DNA of 33,704 nucleotides, taken from positions 1-33,704 of the forward strand of contig JAFYHO010000063.1 in the NCBI GenBank assembly GCA_017539125.1, written 5' to 3'. Below the pieces are notes generated by a model. That model had not been told where the DNA came from. It was given only the letters and a program-made list of their open reading frames with translations, and searched no databases. Positions within the stretch are counted from its first letter, which is position 1. Every line of letters starts with the position of its first letter. The DNA is from Actinomycetaceae bacterium. GTDB lineage: Bacteria; Actinomycetota; Actinomycetes; Actinomycetales; Actinomycetaceae. Shown here piece by piece: positions 6,342 to 29,885 of this stretch. The translations under genes and the position numbers were made by a program.

Positions 6342-7439
6342 TCACTTCTTCTTTCCAGACGTAAGCCCCGTTTTGAATTCGACGACGTCACCGTCTTGCA
6401 TGACGTAGTCTTTGCCCTCTTGGCGCTCCTTGCCGGCGGCGCGTACCTCGGCAATCGAGCCGTACTCCATGAGGTCCTCGTAGGAAACAACTGCCGCCTT
6501 GATGAAGCCGCGCTCAAAATCGGTGTGAATCACGCCAGCTGCCTGCGGGGCAGTATCGCCCTTGTGAATCGTCCAAGCACGCGACTCTTTCTCGCCGGCG
6601 GTCAAAAATGTCTGTAAACCGAGAGTGTCAAAACCGACCCTTGCCAGCTGGTCCAAACCGGACTCGCTCTGCCCTGTCGCCTCCAGCATTTCGGCGGCTT
6701 CGTCAGGCTCTAGCTCGACCAGCTCCGACTCAAATTTCGCGTCTAGGAAAATCGCCTGCGCCGGGGCAACAAACTCGCGTAACTCGGCTTGCATCGCCTC
6801 GTCAGCGAGACCGTCGTCGTCCGTATTAAAAACGTAAATGAACGGCTTAGCCGTCATCAAGTAAAACTGCTTGAGAATATCGGGGTCAAGATCCTTCGCG
6901 TGAGAAGAAATCACCTTGCCCTCTTCGAGAATGGCGAGCGCCGCCTGCGCAGTCTCCAGCACCTCTTTCGGCGTTTTCTTGCCCTTGACCTCTTTGTCCA
7001 GGCGCGGAATCTGGTTCTCAAGGGACTGCATATCGGCAAGAATCAGCTCGGTGGTGACGGTTTCGATATCGTCTTTCGGGTCGATACGCCCGTCAACGTG
7101 GACGACGTCGGGGTCGGAAAATGCGCGCGTGACCATGCAAATTGCGTCAGCTTCACGGATATTGGCGAGGAATTGGTTGCCGAGCCCCTCGCCCTTGGAC
7201 GCGCCGCGCACAATCCCCGCAATATCAACGAAAGAGACAGTTGCCGGCACGATTTTTGCCGAGTTGAACAGCTCGGCGAGCTTGCCTAGACGCTCGTCTG
7301 GCAGGGGGACAACGCCGATATTCGGCTCGATTGTGGCGAATGGGTAGTTCGCGGCGAGGACGGTCGCGCGAGTGAGCGCGTTAAACAAGGTGGACTTGCC
7401 GACGTTGGGCAGCCCCGCAATTCCGATTGTAAGTGACAC
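6342..7439 (-). CDS. ychF: YchF-type (Obg family) nucleotide-binding ATPase
   Basis: A universal P-loop protein that binds ribosomes and prefers ATP over GTP. 365 residues, standard length. The G1 motif is GLPNVGKSTLFN (about residues 8-19); GASKGEGLGNQFL (about 88-100) covers the switch II region; the C-terminal TGS domain ends with AGKERQEGKDYVMQDGDVV. The start is GTG (7437-7439). No ribosome site is visible, but TAGACT ends 6 nt before the GTG, which suggests a leaderless mRNA; the -35 element is weak. It stands alone between two accessory blocks. Confidence 0.96.
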   Translation of the reverse strand: MSLTIGIAGLPNVGKSTLFNALTRATVLAANYPFATIEPNIGVVPLPDERLGKLAELFNSAKIVPATVSFVDIAGIVRGASKGEGLGNQFLANIREADAICMVTRAFSDPDVVHVDGRIDPKDDIETVTTELILADMQSLENQIPRLDKEVKGKKTPKEVLETAQAALAILEEGKVISSHAKDLDPDILKQFYLMTAKPFIYVFNTDDDGLADEAMQAELREFVAPAQAIFLDAKFESELVELEPDEAAEMLEATGQSESGLDQLARVGFDTLGLQTFLTAGEKESRAWTIHKGDTAPQAAGVIHTDFERGFIKAAVVSYEDLMEYGSIAEVRAAGKERQEGKDYVMQDGDVVEFKTGLTSGKKK

Positions 7440-10658: not shown

Positions 10659-12008
10659 ATGTCGGATTCGTCGTCGCAATCGCTTGACCGGGAGTTACTC
10701 AGCCTCGCCCTGCCCACTCTCGCCGCGCTGCTCGCCGAACCGCTCCTGCTCGCCACCGATGCGGCACTCATCGGCCACCTTGGCACACCGCAACTTGCCG
10801 GCCTCTCTCTCGCCTCAACTATCCTCTCCACCCTCGTCGGACTCTGCATCTTCCTCGCCTACACGACCACCGCTGCCACAAGCCGCCTCTTTGGCGTCGG
10901 CAAAGAACGCGAGGGGCTACGCCACGGAATCGACGGGCTCTACCTCGCTGGAATACTCGGCGTTGCACTCTTCATTCTTGTACAAATCAGCGCCAGCCCT
11001 CTCATTTCCCTTTTCCAAGACGACCCCCAAACCCGTAGCTACGCCGTCAGCTATCTGCGCGCCAGCGCCTTCGGGCTGCCCGGAATGCTTATCGTCCTCG
11101 CCGCCACCGGCGTGCTTCGCGGCATGGCAAACACCACCACCCCAGCGCGCGTTGCCACCGTCGGCGCGCTCGTCAATATCCCCCTCAATGCCGTCCTCAT
11201 CTACCCCGCCCACCTCGGTGTTCTCGGCGCGGGAATAGGCACGGCAATCATTCAAACACTCATGGCGCTTGCCCTGACCCGCACAATCCTCCGCCACGCC
11301 CGCCGCCTAGGCGTCTCCCTCAAACTTCGTGGCGCTGGAGTGCTCTCCTCATTCCGCAAAGGTTTGCCGCTCATTATTCGCACCGCCAGCCTGCGCCTTG
11401 CCATTTTGGTGCAGATGGCCGCCGCGAGCACCCTCGGCGTCGAGATCCTCGCCGCGAACCATATCGCCATGACAATGTGGAACTTCGCCGCCTACGGTCT
11501 GGACGCCCTCGCAATCGCCGCGCAAATTCTCATCGGCCGTGAGCTCGGCAAAGGCGAAGCTGACGAGGCGCGCGCGCTTGCCGACCAATGCGTCACGCGC
11601 TCGCTGAAATGGGGCACGATACTCGCCGCCGTGCTCTTTCTCGGCTCTTTCGCTATCCCCTACATCATGTCGAGCGACCAGACAGTCCGCCACCTCGCCC
11701 TAATTGCCCTGATTCTCTGCGCTTTCTCCCTGCCCTTGGCGTCCGCAACGTACATGCTGGACGGCATCCTCATCGGCGCCGGCGACACGAAAGTACTCGC
11801 CATATACATGTGCATAGCGCTCGGCGTTTTTACTCCCCTCGCCCTCGTCGTCGCCCACGCGCCGTTCCACACTCTCGGCTTCCTCGCCCTGTGGATTTGC
11901 TATGCGGGAGTGTTCATGGCAATTCGCGCGGGGACGATGTTGTGGCGCTTGCGCTCCAACAAGTGGATTGTTCTGGGTGACGGTTTAGATGGTGACGGGA
12001 AAGGCTAG
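10659..12008 (+). CDS. MATE-family multidrug efflux transporter
   Basis: 449 residues with about 12 predicted membrane helices, typical of MATE antiporters, which use Na+ or H+ gradients to export drugs or other organic cations. The N-terminal half starts [20 protein letters not shown], then [19 protein letters not shown], the characteristic first-helix region. Later segments include [13 protein letters not shown] and the second-half counterpart [14 protein letters not shown]. It resembles the DinF-like branch. The start lacks a ribosome site but has TATACT 7 nt upstream. The stop overlaps the convergent ispH stop by 4 bp. The substrate cannot be inferred. Confidence 0.92.
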
Positions 12009-13006
12009 ACAGGGTTTTCGCCGGCGGCTTTCAGGTCGGCGCGCAGGTTTTTCGGCAGGGAGAAGCGGATATCTTCGCTTGCCGTCTCCACTTCTTCGAC
12101 GTTCGTGAAACCCCACTGCCCCAAGCGTTCGACCACCTCGCGTACAAGCACCTCTGGCACGGACGCGCCCGAGGTCAAGCCGACAACACTAGCCCCGTCG
12201 AACCACGCCTCACTCAACTCAGAAGCACTATCGACGCGATACGCCGCGCCAGCACCCGCGTCCAGCGCCACCTCAACCAGTCGCACCGAATTAGACGAAT
12301 TCGCCGAACCAACCACGATCACCACATCGCAACCAGCAGCCATCTCCTTGACCGCCCCCTGCCTATTCTGCGTCGCGTAGCAAATATCGCCCGAGGGCGG
12401 GTCAATCAAATTCGGGAAACGCTCACGCAGACGCTCGACCGTCTGCTTCGTCTCGTCGACAGAAAGCGTCGTCTGTGAAATCCACACGACCTTATTCGGG
12501 TCGCGCACTTCGATCCGCGCAACATCGTCAAGACCCTCAATCACCTGGATATGCTCGGGCGCCTGCCCGTAAGTGCCCTCAACTTCTTCATGCCCCTCGT
12601 GTCCGATGAGCAAAATATCGTAATCCTCGGAGGCAAAACGCAAAGCCTGCTTGTGTACTTTCGTCACCAGCGGGCAGGTCGCGTCAATCGTCAAAAGCCC
12701 ACGCGAGAGCGCCTCGCTCTCAACATCGGGGGAAACTCCATGCGCGGAAAAGACCACGCGAGCGCCCTCTGGAACCTCGTCCGTTTCTGAGACGAAAATC
12801 GCACCCCTTTTTGATAGGCTCTCGACCACATATTTGTTGTGGACAATCTCCTTGCGCACATACACCGGCGCACCATATAAATCGAGTGCCTTTTCGACGG
12901 CGTTGACCGCCCTATCCACGCCGGCGCAATACCCGCGCGGACTAGCCAATAACAGGCGTTTTTCCGCCATTTTCTCTACCTTTTCCTCTGCTTGCATATC
13001 GCTCAT
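12005..13006 (-). CDS. ispH: 4-hydroxy-3-methylbut-2-enyl diphosphate reductase
   Basis: Last step of the MEP isoprenoid pathway: makes IPP and DMAPP from HMBPP using a [4Fe-4S] cluster. 333 residues from the ATG at 13006, which has AGCAGG about 9 nt upstream; a GTG at 13015 is also in frame. The three cluster cysteines are visible in [26 protein letters not shown] and [11 protein letters not shown]. The conserved [16 protein letters not shown] and [10 protein letters not shown] blocks are present. It supplies precursors used by the prenyl transferase at 15.7-16.5 kb. Confidence 0.96.
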
Positions 13007-15727: not shown

Positions 15728-16492
15728 CTATTTCCCTAAGCGGCGCTCGCGCAAACAATAGTCACGCAGGGCGCGCAAGAAGTCTGTACGACGGAAATCA
15801 GGCCAATACGTCTCACAAAAATAGAGTTCGGTGTGTACCGTCTGCCACAGCATAAAACCACTCATGCGGATTTCACCCGATGTGCGTATCACGAGGTCGG
15901 GATCTGGCTGCCCACTCGTATACAAATGGCGGGCAATATCGTCGACACATAGACTGTCTGCTACCTCGTCAAGGCTGCGCCCCTGCTCGCTTGCTTCACG
16001 CAAAAGCCCACGTACAGCGTCTGCAATCTCCTGCCTGCCTCCATAGGAAACAGCGATATTGACCTCTACTTTGCCTTCAACGCTTGCCGTTCCTAGCTCG
16101 ACAGCGCGCAGACGTTCAGCAAATTCCTCGGGGAGCAAATCGAGCGCACCGACCATATGTAAACGCCAGCGGCCGATGCCTGCCAGATTCTCTGCCGCTT
16201 GGCAAATCACCTCGCCGAGAGCCTGCAACTCTTGCGGGTCGCGCTTGAGATTGTCTGTCGATAGTAGCCACAAAGTAACGAGAGGGATATGGACTTCTTC
16301 GCACCACGTCAAAAACTCGACGATTTTATCCGCGCCCTTGCGATGGCCGTCAGAGGCGCTCAAACCTGAAGCGCGCGCCCACCTGCGGTTGCCGTCAAGA
16401 ATAACGCCAACATGGCTGGGTAAATCGTTCTCGTCCAGCCCTTTGAGCAGGGAGCGCTCGTAGAGCGAATAGACTACTGAAGGGATTTCCAT
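15728..16492 (-). CDS. cis-prenyl transferase (UppS family; Z-FPP synthase-like)
   Basis: 254 residues. Builds a Z-configured polyprenyl diphosphate from IPP. HVGVILDGNRRWA (about residues 27-39) carries the catalytic Asp; VTLWLLSTDNLKR and VNIAVSYGGRQEI are family blocks; DLVIRTSGEIRMSGFMLWQ with FCETYWPDF binds substrate. In mycobacteria the neighbouring order is greA, hemolysin III, short-chain Z-prenyl synthase (Rv1086). The same three genes lie together here, which favours the short-chain type over the long-chain undecaprenyl synthase. That assignment is inference. GAGGAC lies just before the ATG. Confidence 0.9.
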   Translation of the reverse strand: MEIPSVVYSLYERSLLKGLDENDLPSHVGVILDGNRRWARASGLSASDGHRKGADKIVEFLTWCEEVHIPLVTLWLLSTDNLKRDPQELQALGEVICQAAENLAGIGRWRLHMVGALDLLPEEFAERLRAVELGTASVEGKVEVNIAVSYGGRQEIADAVRGLLREASEQGRSLDEVADSLCVDDIARHLYTSGQPDPDLVIRTSGEIRMSGFMLWQTVHTELYFCETYWPDFRRTDFLRALRDYCLRERRLGK

Positions 16493-23883: not shown

Positions 23884-24444
23884 TTATTTTTCGTCCCCGT
23901 CATAAGGCGAGCAGTGGCAAACGGAGGTATCCCATTTCATCATTGCCAGGGCTTTGTCTCCAGCTGGGCAGATCCCCTCGCCTGCGGCGAGCGCATAACC
24001 CACAAGCGCGTGCAAACATTTGACGCGCTCAGGCATTCCCCCTGCTGACACATCTGCTATTTCGGGCACCTCCCCAAGAATTGCCCGGCGTGCCACATAC
24101 GACTCATGCGCTTTTTGATGAGCCACGCGCGCGGCTTCGTCGTGGAGAATCTCCTCGCTCATATCGCTCATAATGCCAGTCGCCTCGAGGCGCGAGACTT
24201 CTTTGACCAGCTCAGGCAGGCACAGGTAGAAAAGGGTAGGGAAAGGCGTGCCGTCTGGCAGGCGCGGCATGGTGATGGTGACGGCGGGTTTGCCGCAGGC
24301 GCAGCGCGCACCGATTCCGACGAGCCCGCGCGGGGGGCGCCCCAATTGCTCGGCGACGGCTTCTTTATCGCCGTCTTGCAACGCGCTCGCATTGGGCGCG
24401 ATTTTTTGGAGTGTCTGCGCGTCGAGTGGCTCGTATTCTGTCAT
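23884..24444 (-). CDS. DUF501 family protein
   Basis: 186 residues. The middle holds QLGRPPRGLVGIGARCACG followed by LPDGTPFPTLFYLCLP, and the end has ERVKCLHALVGYALA, characteristic of the actinobacterial DUF501 family, which has several conserved Cys and His residues (CACG, CLHA, CHC) that may bind metal. The function is unknown. Its ATG overlaps the FtsB/DivIC stop (ATGA), so the two are coupled; the same pair lies beside ppx2 in mycobacteria. Confidence 0.9.
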   Translation of the reverse strand: MTEYEPLDAQTLQKIAPNASALQDGDKEAVAEQLGRPPRGLVGIGARCACGKPAVTITMPRLPDGTPFPTLFYLCLPELVKEVSRLEATGIMSDMSEEILHDEAARVAHQKAHESYVARRAILGEVPEIADVSAGGMPERVKCLHALVGYALAAGEGICPAGDKALAMMKWDTSVCHCSPYDGDEK

Positions 24445-25253
24445 TGCGCTCCCTTGTCTGCGTCCGTCGGACTGGTCGAAGCTGTTGGCGTGAGAGACGG
24501 CGTAGGAGACGGCGTGGGCGTAGGAGTGGGAGCATTTTTCTTGCCCTCTACATCAATCATGGGCACGAATTCAGGGTTATCAACCTCGCCGTCCTCGTTG
24601 ATATTGCCAGTAACATTGACCGCGTCCCACATTGTCATGTACCACGGTATCGATTGGCGGCGAATTTTTTGCAGCTCGGCTGTGCGCGCCTCGAGACGGT
24701 CGGCGGCGCTGCCTTCTTCATCGCCTGTGATGACATAGAGCGTCTCACCGGGCACGACATAACCTAGCCGCCCGCGCGCTTGGGCTTTCACATAGTCCTC
24801 GTTGTTCCAGAGTTTCAGCTGTTTGTCCAGCTCGGCATTGTGTGCTTGGACGGCTTCAAGTTCTTCTTGGGCTTGGTGTAGGCTGCGCTGCTGTTCGAGA
24901 TAGTTGAAGAAGGTTGGGGCGACGAGGATGAGGGCGAGGGCGGCGGAAAGAACAATGGCGAGGGTGCGCCCGGAGGATAGTCGGCGCGTGCCGCTGGGGG
25001 TGGAGATGACGATATCGCGCTTTTGCGACATGAAATCGTCGAGGTGGTCGCGCAAAGCGGCGGGGTTTGGCGTGTCTGTGACGCTGCGTAGTTCGCTGGT
25101 TTTCTTTGTGTTCGTGACGGTTTTCGCGGTGGTGTGGCTGCGATTGGTGCGAGTGGTTGAGGTGGTGTTTGGTCGTGTTCGCCCACGCGAAGAAGCCGCC
25201 GAGGGCGATGTGTTGCGCGCGGCGGGACGACGTGGGGCACGACGGGAACTCAT
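24441..25253 (-). CDS. FtsB/DivIC-type septum formation initiator
   Basis: 270 residues, much longer than E. coli FtsB. A basic, Thr/Arg-rich cytoplasmic part of about 95 residues precedes one membrane helix (IVLSAALALILVAPTFF). Then comes a coiled coil (LEQQRSLHQAQEELEAVQAH and on) and the hallmark LKLWNNEDYVKAQARGRLGY. The protein ends in a Thr/Pro-rich tail (PTPTPTPSPTPS). It should bind other divisome proteins outside the membrane. The start at 25253 is chosen because TAGAAT ends 7 nt before it (17 bp after GGGACA); the in-frame ATG at 25262 lies inside that -10 box. Confidence 0.87.
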   Translation of the reverse strand: MSSRRAPRRPAARNTSPSAASSRGRTRPNTTSTTRTNRSHTTAKTVTNTKKTSELRSVTDTPNPAALRDHLDDFMSQKRDIVISTPSGTRRLSSGRTLAIVLSAALALILVAPTFFNYLEQQRSLHQAQEELEAVQAHNAELDKQLKLWNNEDYVKAQARGRLGYVVPGETLYVITGDEEGSAADRLEARTAELQKIRRQSIPWYMTMWDAVNVTGNINEDGEVDNPEFVPMIDVEGKKNAPTPTPTPSPTPSLTPTASTSPTDADKGAQ

Positions 25254-25260
25254 AAGCTTC

Positions 25261-25289
25261 ATTCTAAAAGTCTCAGCCTGCCCTGTCCC
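25261..25289 (-). promoter_or_regulatory. Promoter of the FtsB/DivIC gene, likely leaderless
   Basis: On the minus strand GGGACA (25284-25289), 17 bp, TAGAAT (25261-25266). The start codon at 25253 is 7 nt beyond the -10 box and has no ribosome site, as expected for a leaderless mRNA. Confidence 0.55.
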
Positions 25290-25552: not shown

Positions 25553-25575
25553 TGCCAACAATGAAAACCCTCACT

Positions 25576-25617
25576 CCCCGTCATTGCCCATTGCTCCAGC
25601 AGTGAACAGTGACGGGG
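25576..25617. repeat. REP-like hairpin R5
   Basis: CCCCGTCA (25576-25583) and its reverse complement TGACGGGG (25610-25617), with an inner ATTGCT/AGCAGT pairing. It is a short derivative of the REP-like family and lies 11 bp before hspR-tail copy A. Confidence 0.65.
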
Positions 25618-25628
25618 ACTAGTACGTG

Positions 25629-25656
25629 GAGAGTCACCAGAGAACGATCGTGCTGC
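25629..25656 (-). repeat. hspR 3'-end repeat, copy A (degenerate)
   Basis: 22 of 28 bases match the end of hspR at 29416-29443, in the same orientation. On the minus strand it still encodes STIVLW, followed by a stop. It lies 87 bp beyond the DUF3800 stop, and a REP-like hairpin lies on its other side. Confidence 0.6.
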
Positions 25657-25742
25657 AAGAGCCAATGAACATAAACCCATCATTTCAAACGCTCTCACAT
25701 TTTTCGTCCTTAAAAGTGTAATTTTTGTTTCGTTGACGGGTG

Positions 25743-26420
25743 TCAGGATAGTTGTTTGCGGGCTATGGGATTGAGATAGTTTTTCTTCAATGCACGCTGG
25801 CTTGGGAAAAATGTCCGCTCTGACGCGCTTAAACCGCTGTCTTGAAGTTTTTGCCGAATAAGCTCAAGAGTGCAAAACATATCTGCCGCCTGAAAAAGAT
25901 AATAATCTGACGGTTTTACCCGGCGTATATCCGCATCAACGAGCACATTAAAAACAGCATTGATAATCGTGGTAATTTCTTTTTGCCCATTATCGTAATA
26001 AACAATAAGCTCATCGTAACTGTAGAAAAAATCGAGATGATTACGGACAAATAGACCTAACTCTTTTGCCATACGCGCAACAAGTTGTTCGTGGCTGGAA
26101 AACTCCTTTTTCTTAAATACAAAAGACCTATAAGAAATATCGCAGATACGAGAGAAATCAAAAAGACGATGAAAAAGTTTACGGCGCTCAGCAAGACCAA
26201 GATACTTATAGTCTTTCTCTCGGCGAATAAGCGGGGCTGTATGGATAGCGTGTTCTTGAGGAAAACCTGCTTCAATAATGCGGCGCTGTAAATGCTCTAA
26301 GCGCTCCGAAATATCTTTGGATTGGTCGTGGAAAACCAGCGAAATAATATAGTACGGAGCATGGGCTTCGAAATCGCCAAAATCGCCGGACTCATCAACA
26401 AAAATGCTAAGCGTTGACAT
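25743..26420 (-). CDS. DUF3800 domain protein
   Basis: 225 residues from the ATG at 26420, which has AAGGAAG upstream; an in-frame start at 26444 has none. The family signature is present: LSIFVDESGDFG at the N-terminus, a middle ELIVYYDNGQ strand, and SDYYLFQAADMFCTLE near the C-terminus. The conserved acidic residues (DES, YYD, AAD) suggest an RNase H-like nuclease fold, but activity is unproven. Such genes are common in mobile and defence-rich regions. It is bounded by hspR-tail copies A and B. Confidence 0.85.
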   Translation of the reverse strand: MSTLSIFVDESGDFGDFEAHAPYYIISLVFHDQSKDISERLEHLQRRIIEAGFPQEHAIHTAPLIRREKDYKYLGLAERRKLFHRLFDFSRICDISYRSFVFKKKEFSSHEQLVARMAKELGLFVRNHLDFFYSYDELIVYYDNGQKEITTIINAVFNVLVDADIRRVKPSDYYLFQAADMFCTLELIRQKLQDSGLSASERTFFPSQRALKKNYLNPIARKQLS

Positions 26421-26450
26421 GACTTCCTTAGGGGCGGTGAGCAAGGAAAT

Positions 26451-26471
26451 GGCGGGGAAACAATCCCCGCC
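26451..26471. promoter_or_regulatory. Hairpin in the leader of the DUF3800 gene
   Basis: GGCGGGGA, loop AACAA, TCCCCGCC: an 8-bp GC-rich stem 31 bp upstream of the DUF3800 start. No T-run follows on either strand, so it could be an operator or an mRNA structure rather than a terminator. Confidence 0.4.
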
Positions 26472-26587
26472 GAAAGGGTGAACCAGGGTCTTGCGACCAG
26501 CTCAGTAAGTCTCAGTTTAACACGGGAAAAAACCTGTGTCTATGAACTAAATCTCTAGGCGACACAGAAAAATGACGGGGTTAGGCA

Positions 26588-26625
26588 GAGGGTTGCCAGA
26601 GGACGATAGTGCCGCGAGGCTTGGA
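26588..26625 (-). repeat. hspR 3'-end repeat, copy B
   Basis: 36 of 38 bases match the end of hspR (29416-29453), same orientation. On the minus strand it reads SKPRGTIVLWQPSA then TAA, as hspR reads PKPRGTIVLWQPSTR then stop. It begins 8 bp beyond the ion channel stop. ATGACGGGG (a REP-like end) lies 7 bp from its other edge. Confidence 0.9.
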
Positions 26626-26632
26626 CAACTCG

Positions 26633-27346
26633 TCAGCGTTCGTTATCTGCGCTTTGTTTCGGCTCAGAAAACTCGTCAAGTAAACCCGCGGTAATAATGC
26701 TGGCAGGCAGAGCAACAATCGCAATTCCCGCAAAAGAAGATAGCATTGCTACAACACGGCCAATATCGCTACTCGGATAAAGATCACCGTACCCAACCGT
26801 TGTCAAGGAAATTACAGACCAGTAGATAGCGTCGAAAAAAGAGGTAAAGGTTTCCGGCTCAACATTGAAAATAATAAGCGCCGAAACAAGCACGTACCCA
26901 ATTGCCAACGCCAACACGACACCAAGGGCGTTTTTCTCTTTTCTCAAAGCAGAGCCGATAGCATTCACGCCCTTGCTGTAACGAATAAGTCTGAATGCTC
27001 GGAGTACGCGGAACAGGCGCAGGACACGCAAAGTGCGCCAAGCAGGATTCAGGGCGATAAAGGCAGGAAGTATAGAAAGCAAATCAACTATCGCCATTGG
27101 AGTAAAAGGATAAAGCAAGAAAGACAGCGCTTTTTTGCCGAGTTTGAAATCTGCCGTCACCCACCGGCACGCATAATCGACAATAAAGACCAGCACGCAC
27201 ACCCATTCAAGGGCAAGAAGCCATGTAGGAACATCTCTGAGGCAAAGTGGCACTAGAGAAAGAATGATGAGGACGGTCATCACTCGACCGTAAATTATCG
27301 CTGCCCCTTCTTCTCCATTGAGCAGGTCATATAATTTCTCGCGCAC
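26633..27346 (-). CDS. Voltage-gated-type potassium/ion channel
   Basis: 237 residues with six membrane segments. The S4 helix has regularly spaced arginines (RTLRVLRLFRVLRAFRLIRY) and the pore carries the potassium filter TTVGYGDLYP before the last helix, so it is a Kv-type channel subunit, probably tetrameric in the plasma membrane. The usual bacterial length is 230-280. The GTG start at 27346 has AAGGGGAA upstream. It lies between hspR-tail copies B and C, divergent from the ATPase/DUF234 gene. The short C-terminus after S6 leaves little regulatory domain. Confidence 0.92.
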   Translation of the reverse strand: MREKLYDLLNGEEGAAIIYGRVMTVLIILSLVPLCLRDVPTWLLALEWVCVLVFIVDYACRWVTADFKLGKKALSFLLYPFTPMAIVDLLSILPAFIALNPAWRTLRVLRLFRVLRAFRLIRYSKGVNAIGSALRKEKNALGVVLALAIGYVLVSALIIFNVEPETFTSFFDAIYWSVISLTTVGYGDLYPSSDIGRVVAMLSSFAGIAIVALPASIITAGLLDEFSEPKQSADNER

Positions 27347-27480
27347 AACTTCCCCTTGCCCTCACACATTCCAATGGCGGAACACTCCGTCCACGCCTGC
27401 AACTATTCCAGTTTTCCCATTGTGTGTGAACTATACACACTGAGGATTTTTTCTTACTTCGTTCACCAAAGCAAAGACCG

Positions 27481-27523
27481 TAATAGCAGACTTACGAGTA
27501 TCTTACTCACAAGTCTGCTATTA
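27481..27523. promoter_or_regulatory. 43-bp near-perfect palindrome upstream of ATPase/DUF234 gene
   Basis: TAATAGCAGACTT (27481-27493) and its exact reverse complement (27511-27523) enclose a second palindrome GAGTA-tct-TACTC (27496-27508). Only two AC/AC mismatches interrupt the whole structure. It ends 31 bp before the ATG. TATTAT (27519-27524) could be a -10 box inside it. An operator or a recombination site is more likely than a terminator. Confidence 0.75.
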
Positions 27524-27554
27524 TTTATCTTGTATTTTAATCAATGGAGGCACC

Positions 27555-28967
27555 ATGTTCATTGGCAGGAAAACCGAACTGCAGGCACTCAAAAACGCCT
27601 ACACGCACCCCGATTTCCAAATGCTTGTACTCTACGGACGCAGGAGAATCGGCAAAACAACACTACTCAACCACTTCGCAAGCAACAAAAAATCGTTGTA
27701 CTTCACCGCCCAAGAATCAAGCGACACTGAAAATCTACGTCGCTTCTCCGCTTTACTCCACGAATACTTCGGCGCCCCCACAACCCTAGGAACTTTCACC
27801 TCTTGGCTTTCCGCATTTGAATACGCTGCGCAACAAGCCAAACAGCTCGACAACCCTTTCCTTTTTATTTTCGACGAGTTTCCATATGCAGCACAAGCCA
27901 ACCAGGCATTGCCCTCCCAATTACAGATAGCCATCGACCACCATTTCACACAGACCAACGCATGCATCATACTCTGCGGATCAAACGAAGGCTTCATGGA
28001 AAGTGAAGTGTTAGACAAGAAAAGCCCCTTATACGGCCGCAGAACTGGCCAGATACACCTCAAACCTTTCGACTATTTTGAGGCAGCACAAATGTCTCAC
28101 ACTTCAAGCCCCCAAGAACAAGTCAGATACTACGCGACCTTTGGGGGAACACCCTACTATCTAGCCCAGCTTGACACTTCCTTAACCTACGAAGAAAACG
28201 TCCACCGCCTCATGTTTTCCTCGTCAGGACTGCTCTACGCCGAACCCTCAATGCTTTTACGTCAAGAACTACGCGAACCAGCTTTATACAACGCAATCCT
28301 TTCAGCAGTAGCGAACGGCGCAACAACACCAAAAACAATTGCAGACCAGTCAGGAGTCGCGTTAACCTCGGTCGGAAAATACCTCAAAACACTTGTCAAC
28401 CTCCATATTCTCGCACGCAAAACCCCATTCGGCACTAAAGTAGAAGGAAGGAAAGCCCTGTACTATATAACAGACCCTTTCTTTGCCTTCTGGTATCGTT
28501 TCGTTTCCCCCGCCGTCGGGGCAATCGAACTGGGCGCGGGCGCTGCGGCTGCACGTGAAGTAACAACAGGGCAAAGCCTGTCCACATTTGAGGGACACCA
28601 GTTTGAAACTATCACCACACAATGGCTCACACGGCGCAACACCCAAGAAGGCTTGCCATTCCTAGCAACCGAATTTGGCTCATGGTGGGGAACTGACCCA
28701 CAAGCGAAAGAACAGGTCGATATAGATGTCATCGCAGCCAATGCGCAACGACGCTCCATCATTGCTGGCGAATGCAAATGGCGTGAAAACTTCAACGAAA
28801 CCGAAACATTAAAAACTCTCGAACACCGCGCCCAGCTCATACCAGGAAACTGGGATAAGCGCTACCTCTACCTTTTTTCCAAAAAACCACTATCTTCAGC
28901 AACGCAAAACAAGATAAAAAACAACCCGGCTCTACGTTCAATCACTCTAAAAGAAATGTATTCTTAA
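27555..28967 (+). CDS. ATPase of the archaeal-type (ATPase_2) family with DUF234 domain
   Basis: 470 residues. An N-terminal STAND/AAA-like ATPase begins MFIGRKTELQAL, with Walker A LYGRRRIGKTT (about 26-36) and Walker B FLFIFDEFPYA (about 96-106). A winged-helix part follows (about 235-285: TTPKTIADQSGVALTSVGKY). The C-terminal DUF234 domain carries QVDIDVIAANAQ...AGECKW, a PD-(D/E)xK-like core. The cellular role of the family is unknown. GGAGG lies 6 nt before the ATG. The gene is divergent from the ion channel and bounded by hspR-tail copies B and C. Confidence 0.9.
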   Translation: MFIGRKTELQALKNAYTHPDFQMLVLYGRRRIGKTTLLNHFASNKKSLYFTAQESSDTENLRRFSALLHEYFGAPTTLGTFTSWLSAFEYAAQQAKQLDNPFLFIFDEFPYAAQANQALPSQLQIAIDHHFTQTNACIILCGSNEGFMESEVLDKKSPLYGRRTGQIHLKPFDYFEAAQMSHTSSPQEQVRYYATFGGTPYYLAQLDTSLTYEENVHRLMFSSSGLLYAEPSMLLRQELREPALYNAILSAVANGATTPKTIADQSGVALTSVGKYLKTLVNLHILARKTPFGTKVEGRKALYYITDPFFAFWYRFVSPAVGAIELGAGAAAAREVTTGQSLSTFEGHQFETITTQWLTRRNTQEGLPFLATEFGSWWGTDPQAKEQVDIDVIAANAQRRSIIAGECKWRENFNETETLKTLEHRAQLIPGNWDKRYLYLFSKKPLSSATQNKIKNNPALRSITLKEMYS

Positions 28968-28995
28968 GGCTTTCCAATACAGCAACCTTGAGCTT

Positions 28996-29012
28996 CCCCG
29001 TCATCGCGAAGG
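28996..29012. repeat. REP-like half element R6
   Basis: CCCCGTCATCGCGAAGG, the left end of the REP-like family alone, 13 bp before hspR-tail copy C. Confidence 0.5.
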
Positions 29013-29025
29013 GAGGCACTAGACG

Positions 29026-29053
29026 GAGGGCTGCCAGAGGACGATGGTGCCGC
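29026..29053 (-). repeat. hspR 3'-end repeat, copy C
   Basis: 27 of 28 bases match the end of hspR (29416-29443), same orientation; similarity fades over the next ten bases. On the minus strand it reads CGTIVLWQPSV then TAG. It lies between the ATPase/DUF234 gene and the ribbon-helix-helix gene. Confidence 0.88.
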
Positions 29054-29065
29054 AAGTTTGAGGCA

Positions 29066-29100
29066 TTGAAAAAGAAGTTATTTCGTATTACGATATTTAT
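29066..29100 (+). promoter_or_regulatory. Leaderless promoter and operator of the ribbon-helix-helix gene
   Basis: TTGAAA (29066-29071), 17 bp, TACGAT (29089-29094), then 6 nt to the ATG at 29101, so the mRNA should start at or very near the ATG. The palindrome TCGTA-t-TACGA (29083-29093) overlaps the -10 box and is a good candidate operator for the encoded DNA-binding protein. Confidence 0.65.
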
Positions 29101-29349
29101 ATGGCTGAAACAATACGAGGAAAAGAAGTCTCTCAAGTAGATATTGAGGCGTGGGTAGAAGAAGCCGAAGCAGGCTACGATGTCCCTGCCCTGATACAGC
29201 GCGGTCGTGGCAGGCCCGGGCGCGGCGCGCAACCCAGCCAAGTAGTTGCTGTGCGCTTCACCCCCGAAGAAATCGCAGAACTCGACGCCCGCGCGCACGA
29301 CCAACATCTCACCCGTTCAGCTTTTATCCGAGAAAAAGCCCTCGCATGA
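29101..29349 (+). CDS. Ribbon-helix-helix (CopG-like) protein, possible antitoxin
   Basis: 82 residues. The C-terminal half is a ribbon-helix-helix domain: strand VVAVRFTP, helix EEIAELDARAHDQ, turn HLTRS, helix AFIREKALA. The N-terminal half is acidic, with a basic Arg/Gly linker (RGRGRPGRG). This layout resembles antitoxins with a DNA-binding end, though here the RHH part is at the C-terminus. No ribosome site; the promoter suggests leaderless translation. Its stop overlaps an ATG (ATGA) that opens only an 18-codon frame, perhaps the stump of a toxin gene (see next entry). Confidence 0.75.
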   Translation: MAETIRGKEVSQVDIEAWVEEAEAGYDVPALIQRGRGRPGRGAQPSQVVAVRFTPEEIAELDARAHDQHLTRSAFIREKALA

Positions 29350-29402
29350 CCACATCTATCCACCCCTTTGCCCGCAAACAATACCGAGCGCTCCTACCCT
29401 AA
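29346..29402 (+). pseudogene. 18-codon stump overlapping the RHH gene, possible truncated partner
   Basis: ATG at 29346 overlaps the RHH stop (ATGA) and opens MTTSIHPFARKQYRALLP, then TAA at 29400-29402, just 10-14 bp before the hspR tail. The coupling is typical of antitoxin-toxin pairs, and the stump ends where the hspR repeat begins. It could equally be a chance frame. The family was not recognised. Confidence 0.3.
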
Positions 29403-29405
29403 AAC

Positions 29406-29885
29406 TCAGCGGGTAGAGGGTTGCCAGAGGACGATGGTGCCGCGAGGCTTGGGCTGGCGGCGAGCGCGGGTCTCGCGCAAGCGCACACGCAACTCGCTCG
29501 GATCGGCAGCCATGAACACATCACCGTCAGCGCCAGCGGCGAAAACGCGATTGCGCTCCAGCTCAGCAGCAGCAAGCACCTGCTCTTGCTTCTCGACCTG
29601 CCGACGTAAACGCCGCACCTGCCCACGCAGGCGCTCCACCTCATCTTGCAACTCAAAAATACGCGCAATACCCGCCAGCGACACTCCCTCGTCCTGCGAA
29701 AGGCGCTGAATCTCCTGCAAACGCTCAACATCGGCAAGGCAATAGCGCCGCCCGCCCCCACGGGTGCGCTGAGGCACGACAAGCCCAAGGCGGTCATACT
29801 GGCGAAGCGTCTGGGGGTGAATCCCCGCCAACTCCGCCGCCACCGAAACAGTGAAAATTGCTGCGTCACGCCGTGGGCTTACCAT
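29406..29885 (-). CDS. hspR: Heat-shock repressor HspR (MerR family)
   Basis: 159 residues. Represses the dnaK operon in actinobacteria by binding HAIR sites, with DnaK as co-repressor. The MerR-type winged HTH is clear: FTVSVAAELAGIHPQTLRQYDRLGLV, read in two blocks from residue 11, then GRRYCLADVERLQEIQ. A coiled coil (about 78-108) mediates dimerisation. The C-terminus KPRGTIVLWQPSTR matches the hydrophobic tail of other HspR proteins. It is the last gene of the operon, 47 bp after dnaJ. The final dozen codons recur three times downstream as direct repeats. No HAIR site is visible in the window; the operon promoter lies past the right edge. Confidence 0.95.
   Translation of the reverse strand: MVSPRRDAAIFTVSVAAELAGIHPQTLRQYDRLGLVVPQRTRGGGRRYCLADVERLQEIQRLSQDEGVSLAGIARIFELQDEVERLRGQVRRLRRQVEKQEQVLAAAELERNRVFAAGADGDVFMAADPSELRVRLRETRARRQPKPRGTIVLWQPSTR

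Follow-up and report, generated by a model that had tools for sequence, protein, structure and literature searches.

In the 33,704-nucleotide stretch of DNA analysed here (the window), which belongs to the 1.79-Mb draft of a rumen-type Actinomycetaceae genome (G000; 173 contigs, ~4% contamination, the sole genome of its species among those compared), the intact hspR gene (29406–29885, minus strand; Pfam MerR) is followed by an array of small gene units that extends to a ftsB/DivIC-like gene (24441–25262, minus strand; PF04977), the chromosomal border of the array. The units are bounded by the 3′ end of hspR itself, which occurs four times in direct orientation: as displaced copies A (25629–25656), B (26588–26625) and C (29026–29053), all on the minus strand, and as the native end, copy D (29416–29453), which forms the last codons of the gene. 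Both the positions and the similarities given in the original prediction hold. Against the 28-bp core of the native end (29416–29443), copy A matches at 22 positions and copies B and C at 27 each, and B is identical to D at 36 of 38 positions. When the ftsB–hspR interval was shuffled 2,000 times under an order-1 Markov model, the best match never exceeded 20/28, leaving even copy A out of reach; the next-best real site within the interval scores 15/28, and the best matches in positions 1–25000 of the window score 17/28 on the plus strand and 18/28 on the minus strand. No further tail copy was found in the rest of the genome at up to three mismatches, and neither 38 relatives nor viral contigs yielded the tail pattern. 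The viral contigs likewise yielded no relatives of HspR, and Rfam assigns no RNA family to the tails themselves.

Between the copies lie only accessory genes, as had been predicted, to which an RNA and a toxin remnant can now be added. Compartment A–B holds a DUF3800 gene (25743–26444, minus; PF12686) with a DUF3800-XI RNA directly upstream (26456–26504, minus; RF02975, 52.6 bits against a gathering threshold of 37.8). Compartment B–C holds an ion channel gene (26633–27346, minus; PF00520/PF07885) and a gene for a divergent ATPase_2/DUF234 protein (27555–28967, plus), the latter matching the PADLOC candidate PDC-S27. In compartment C–D, an RHH gene (29101–29349, plus) represents the antitoxin half of a toxin–antitoxin pair whose toxin half is broken off beside copy D, cut after ~11 codons (29346–29402, plus); where relatives of this antitoxin occur in plasmids of actinobacteria, the next gene is of ~80 residues and either a toxin or hypothetical. 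All three cargo units are G+C-poor (0.43, 0.48 and 0.53, versus 0.64 for hspR, 0.60 for dnaJ and 0.59 for ftsB). We found no recombinase anywhere in the hspR–ftsB interval, in agreement with the earlier observation that the region lacks an integrase.

The displaced tails look like former coding sequence. Each encodes TIVLW or TIVLWQPS in frame and reaches a stop shortly downstream (TIVLW-stop in A, TIVLWQPSA-stop in B, TIVLWQPSV-stop in C), again as originally described. The displaced copies show five differences from copy D within the TIVLWQPS codons, every one of them synonymous, although a random change would be synonymous in only one of four cases (P ~0.001), and each tail copy therefore probably once served as a working hspR 3′ end. 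This pattern supports the proposal that cassettes were added stepwise next to hspR with its end restored each time. After TIVLW, copy A continues TGA CTC TCC ACG TAC TAG; with CGA in place of TGA it would read W-R-L-S-T-Y-stop, close to the WRPSY-stop end of the congener G002. We infer from this single presumed change that copy A is a displaced ancestral hspR end, now decayed, and the oldest of the copies, as had been suspected.

The phenomenon is not confined to hspR, and its earlier description as a feature of that gene was too narrow. We screened 912 kb of G000, about half of its sequence, for gene 3′ ends that recur close by without being paralogues and found three more loci, which makes six inserts at four genes, with duplicated ends of 26–291 bp. 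On contig C7, the last 61 bp of a PdtaS-type histidine kinase gene (27097–28536, minus) recur at 26234–26294 with 84% identity, and RelB and PIN_3 genes lie between the two tails. The interval between this kinase gene and ligA is only ~12 bp in the congener G001 and holds other genes in G003 and G006, so that cargo differs between species; the short G001 interval counts in favour of insertion, with the qualification that the G000 gap also contains genes other than the insert. On contig C3, the last 97 codons of a hisN-like gene of the inositol-monophosphatase family (6597–7391, minus) recur at 439–732, enclosing genes for IetA, IetS, a C5 methyltransferase and one unassigned protein. Here 33 of the 97 codons differ, with differences spread throughout the 291 bp, and because 30 of the 33 are synonymous and only three non-synonymous, both tails have been maintained as coding sequence. 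On contig C88, 26 bp of an ATP-grasp gene (11294–12451, plus) recur exactly at 15746–15771 beyond a set of ABC-transporter genes (both assignments made by eye from the sequences); the displaced copy ends after LID, where the intact gene reads LIDFSK. No recombinase was found in the C7, C3 or C88 intervals. An additional candidate on contig C55 (L221:14476/15966) was rejected as lying antisense inside a repetitive adhesin-like gene, and the remaining duplicated gene ends in the sample are paralogue arrays, REPs or MITE-like repeats. In a control of 1.69 Mb from other Actinobacteria, multi-copy repeats and GC-rich pairs of low identity made up most of the matches, which were judged from the table as a whole rather than pair by pair and with L107 and L054 left out, and none was clear; 329 kb of G001 gave one weak candidate (44 bp, 77%).

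Most displaced tails also adjoin a REP element. The family concerned (CCCCGTCATTGCGAG...CTCGCAATGACGGGG) has 346 matches in G000 at up to two mismatches. In the hspR array, a short REP hairpin (25575–25618; inverted repeat I5) lies behind copy A, a REP end at 26573–26580 behind copy B, and a third, matching with one mismatch, at 28996–29009 (plus) behind copy C. The REP ends (TGACGGGG/CCCCGTCA) are separated from the 28-bp core by 11 bp at A, 7 bp at B and 22 bp at C; the predicted spacing of 7–13 bp thus holds for A and B but not for C. Overall, a REP end occurs within 40 bp downstream of five of the six displaced tails (A, B, C, hisN and C88), compared with none of the four intact target genes and a background of 5.4% of 635 gene ends. 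The REPs at A–C had been noticed before this test was made, and the sites were already known when the 10-mer and the mismatches permitted in it were chosen, so the fair part of the comparison is what the three other loci show, two of them having a REP end (P 0.008 without correction for that choice). An outward search from all 235 REP ends recovered B, hisN, C88 and a weak signal for A; controls scored no higher than 12. The adjacency pointed out in the original prediction is statistically real, and it may be mechanistic.

What these loci record is the serial insertion, at hspR and at other genes, of small packets of foreign DNA with duplication of the gene tail. At hspR, three successive insertions would have struck the extreme 3′ end of the gene, each bringing a working replacement for the last codons and pushing the older tail outward together with the DNA behind it. 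The DUF3800 unit would then be the oldest, followed by the channel/ATPase unit and finally the RHH unit, an order that would be the same if integrases had been responsible. As to how the DNA entered, we lean towards insertion without a recombinase, by short homology or template switching near REPs, over lost integrases, while holding this to have somewhat less than an even chance of being right. Incoming DNA from a relative would carry the homologous gene tail joined to the cargo; recombination or a template switch would start in the short homology, copy the cargo and rejoin the original template a little further upstream, which would duplicate the tail. A REP hairpin behind the gene could label the site or trigger the event, for instance through stalled replication or breakage. 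G000 encodes ComEC homologues, making DNA uptake possible. This route is favoured by the variable length of the overlaps, the unrelated cores without dyad symmetry, the multiplicity of targets and the presence of REPs at the spot; template switching at a REP also fits the newest hspR tail having no REP behind it. Further in its favour, none of the six inserts contains a recombinase, and the phage-type integrases of the genome sit at tmRNA and tRNA genes: one is next to the tmRNA gene, whose end is repeated there over 22 bp, and the other two are on contigs with tRNA genes nearby. Several features weaken it. The exact identity at the junctions, 21–26 bp in most cases, is very little for homologous recombination to act on and resembles a typical integrase core; the position of the copies at gene 3′ ends and the restored reading frame are what integrase targets show; copies B and C require that REPs were carried in by the inserts; and the REP test rests partly on the very copies that prompted it.

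The principal alternative is one that we consider plausible if somewhat less probable. The inserts could be remnants of phage- or ICE-like integrative elements whose integrases recognize gene 3′ ends, accreted in tandem at hspR, with the enzymes later lost or acting in trans. Such an origin would explain why the cores are short, sharply bounded and placed in the last codons, why the substituted C-termini have new stops and why the tails diverge synonymously, and G000 does possess six tyrosine recombinases and one serine recombinase. The anatomy is that of prophage e14, which replaces the 3′ end of icd in Escherichia coli with 10 synonymous and two non-synonymous changes and integrates by site-specific recombination at 11-bp direct repeats (PMC4759930). 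Like e14, the G000 inserts exchange the 3′ end of a protein-coding gene for a synonymously diverged version and leave the old end at the far side; unlike this prophage, they span 0.4–6 kb, the smallest only 0.4–0.9 kb, and have no integrase. Judged as integrative elements, the inserts do show a directly repeated and restored gene 3′ end but carry no integrase. In cis-mobilizable elements and in the tandem accretion of ICEs, integrase-less units are stacked between copies of an attachment-like sequence at a gene 3′ end. The hspR units share this arrangement, but we found no related element carrying an integrase for the G000 tails, and several unrelated targets are used in one genome.

A single enzyme acting in trans at hspR, one of the options first proposed, would be insufficient, since at least three other genes in the genome are duplicated with unrelated tails. 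No core is common to the four target tails, and under the integrative-element reading four enzymes would be required, all of them missing. Nor did relatives supply one: no element with an integrase for these sites turned up among 38 relatives and the viral contigs, and no tyrosine integrase lies near hspR in ~100 actinobacterial loci inspected up to 10 kb on each side, using a profile that was built from five of G000's own integrases and also recovered a sixth not used in building it. The cores lack dyad symmetry (a weak test), and the REP association is not predicted by integrases. Repeats of the hspR end at those ~100 loci reach at best 22/30, which is the level of chance. In G001 a phosphoglucomutase-like gene (named by eye) stands behind hspR, and ftsB lies on a different contig from hspR in both G001 and G002; the hspR–ftsB junction is absent from all relatives examined, among which we found neither an empty hspR–ftsB site nor donor DNA for the inserts.

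Two further explanations fare much worse. If the hspR end, or the whole gene with subsequent decay, had been duplicated locally and accessory genes had moved in between afterwards, this would account for direct-orientation tails close to their parent gene, but we regard it as very unlikely. Homology to hspR ends 28–38 bp into the gene, with no further hspR traces, which also disfavours the alternative raised earlier that the tails might be remnants of full-length duplications; moreover, the differences are synonymous rather than random (30:3 at hisN), which is unexpected of neutral leftovers, and the identical anatomy recurs at three other genes. Slimmer still are the chances of an assembly artefact in which strain fragments were wrongly joined at common short words, for while the draft is fragmented and slightly contaminated and small k-mers could span the exact 21–26-bp runs found at several junctions, copy A shares no more than 6–8 bp exactly with the other tails and B and C only 14 bp with each other, the hisN copies diverge along their whole length, and a wrong join alone cannot place non-hspR sequence on the gene side of a tail, for which a real duplicate is needed.

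Among known systems, small variable cargo between conserved genes without mobility genes, as in the kinase–ligA gap, is reminiscent of the minimal mobile elements of Neisseria. Those elements move by exchange through homologous flanks, and a duplicated tail is not among their defining features, whereas the G000 inserts are marked by one. Compared with integron cassette arrays, the repeats here consist of codons of the targeted gene itself and vary from locus to locus, and the array has no integrase next to it. The closest known kind is insertion with long target duplication. It was described by Nobusato, Kobayashi and co-workers (2000; cited in PMC3031569 and PMC4978471) for restriction–modification and similar units, which are flanked by direct target duplications of long and variable extent and for which no recombinase is stated. 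Direct target duplications likewise flank the G000 inserts, one of which carries a C5 methyltransferase together with IetAS. In contrast to that description, the duplication in G000 is always a gene 3′ end with a stop nearby, the tails have diverged by synonymous changes, one gene carries a stack of inserts, and REPs adjoin the displaced tails. The G000 loci are a gene-tail-specific, REP-associated variant of this kind of insertion.

More broadly, these loci bear on how small defence and toxin–antitoxin units move without mobility genes. Six tail-bounded inserts at four genes, those at hspR ordered by their stacking and most of them beside REPs, make it testable whether insertion by short homology at gene ends marked by REPs is a general route. 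A bolder and, on present grounds, rather doubtful extension is that REPs direct recombinase-free gene gain: repair or replication at the hairpin would switch to foreign DNA sharing the gene tail, copy a defence or toxin–antitoxin unit and return, with successive rounds building arrays. If so, each event would leave an additional copy of the tail ahead of the REP, and repeated rounds would explain arrays like that of hspR. A displaced gene tail next to a REP provides a search rule that can be applied to any genome.

Gene-tail duplications also occur at at least two other loci of the window's own genome, a 173-contig draft (coordinates with L-numbers are local to stretches of that draft). On contig C7 (L200:6234-8536), a RelB-PIN pair is bracketed by a 61-bp tail duplication of a PdtaS-type histidine kinase gene; the gap between the kinase gene and ligA is almost closed in the congener G001 and differs in the relatives G003 and G006. 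Contig C3 (L206:439-7391) carries a 291-bp, synonymously diverged tail copy of a hisN-like gene, and between the two tails lie IetAS, a C5 methyltransferase and one gene without a Pfam match.

On contig C48 (L198:4463-6188), 84-bp direct repeats of 96% identity, which contain ATGCAAAT motifs, surround a single accessory gene, AlbA-like as judged by eye. A second family of dispersed repeats, GCTGGCATTGTCGGTAAATGCTGGCATTT, clusters close to an integrase and a ParA-like gene on contig C64 (L203:3665-13697). An element of ~4 kb with a tyrosine integrase sits at the tmRNA gene on contig C18 (L211:2538-6822), and 22 bp from the end of tmRNA are repeated at its borders. A third Xer-like tyrosine recombinase is encoded in low-G+C DNA at one end of contig C131 (L201:8050-9087).

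Within the hspR array itself, a DUF3800-XI RNA (Rfam; window positions 26456-26504) lies immediately 5' of the DUF3800 gene. Upstream of the ATPase/DUF234 gene, a near-perfect 20-bp inverted repeat (90%; window positions 27481-27523) is perhaps the operator of that gene.
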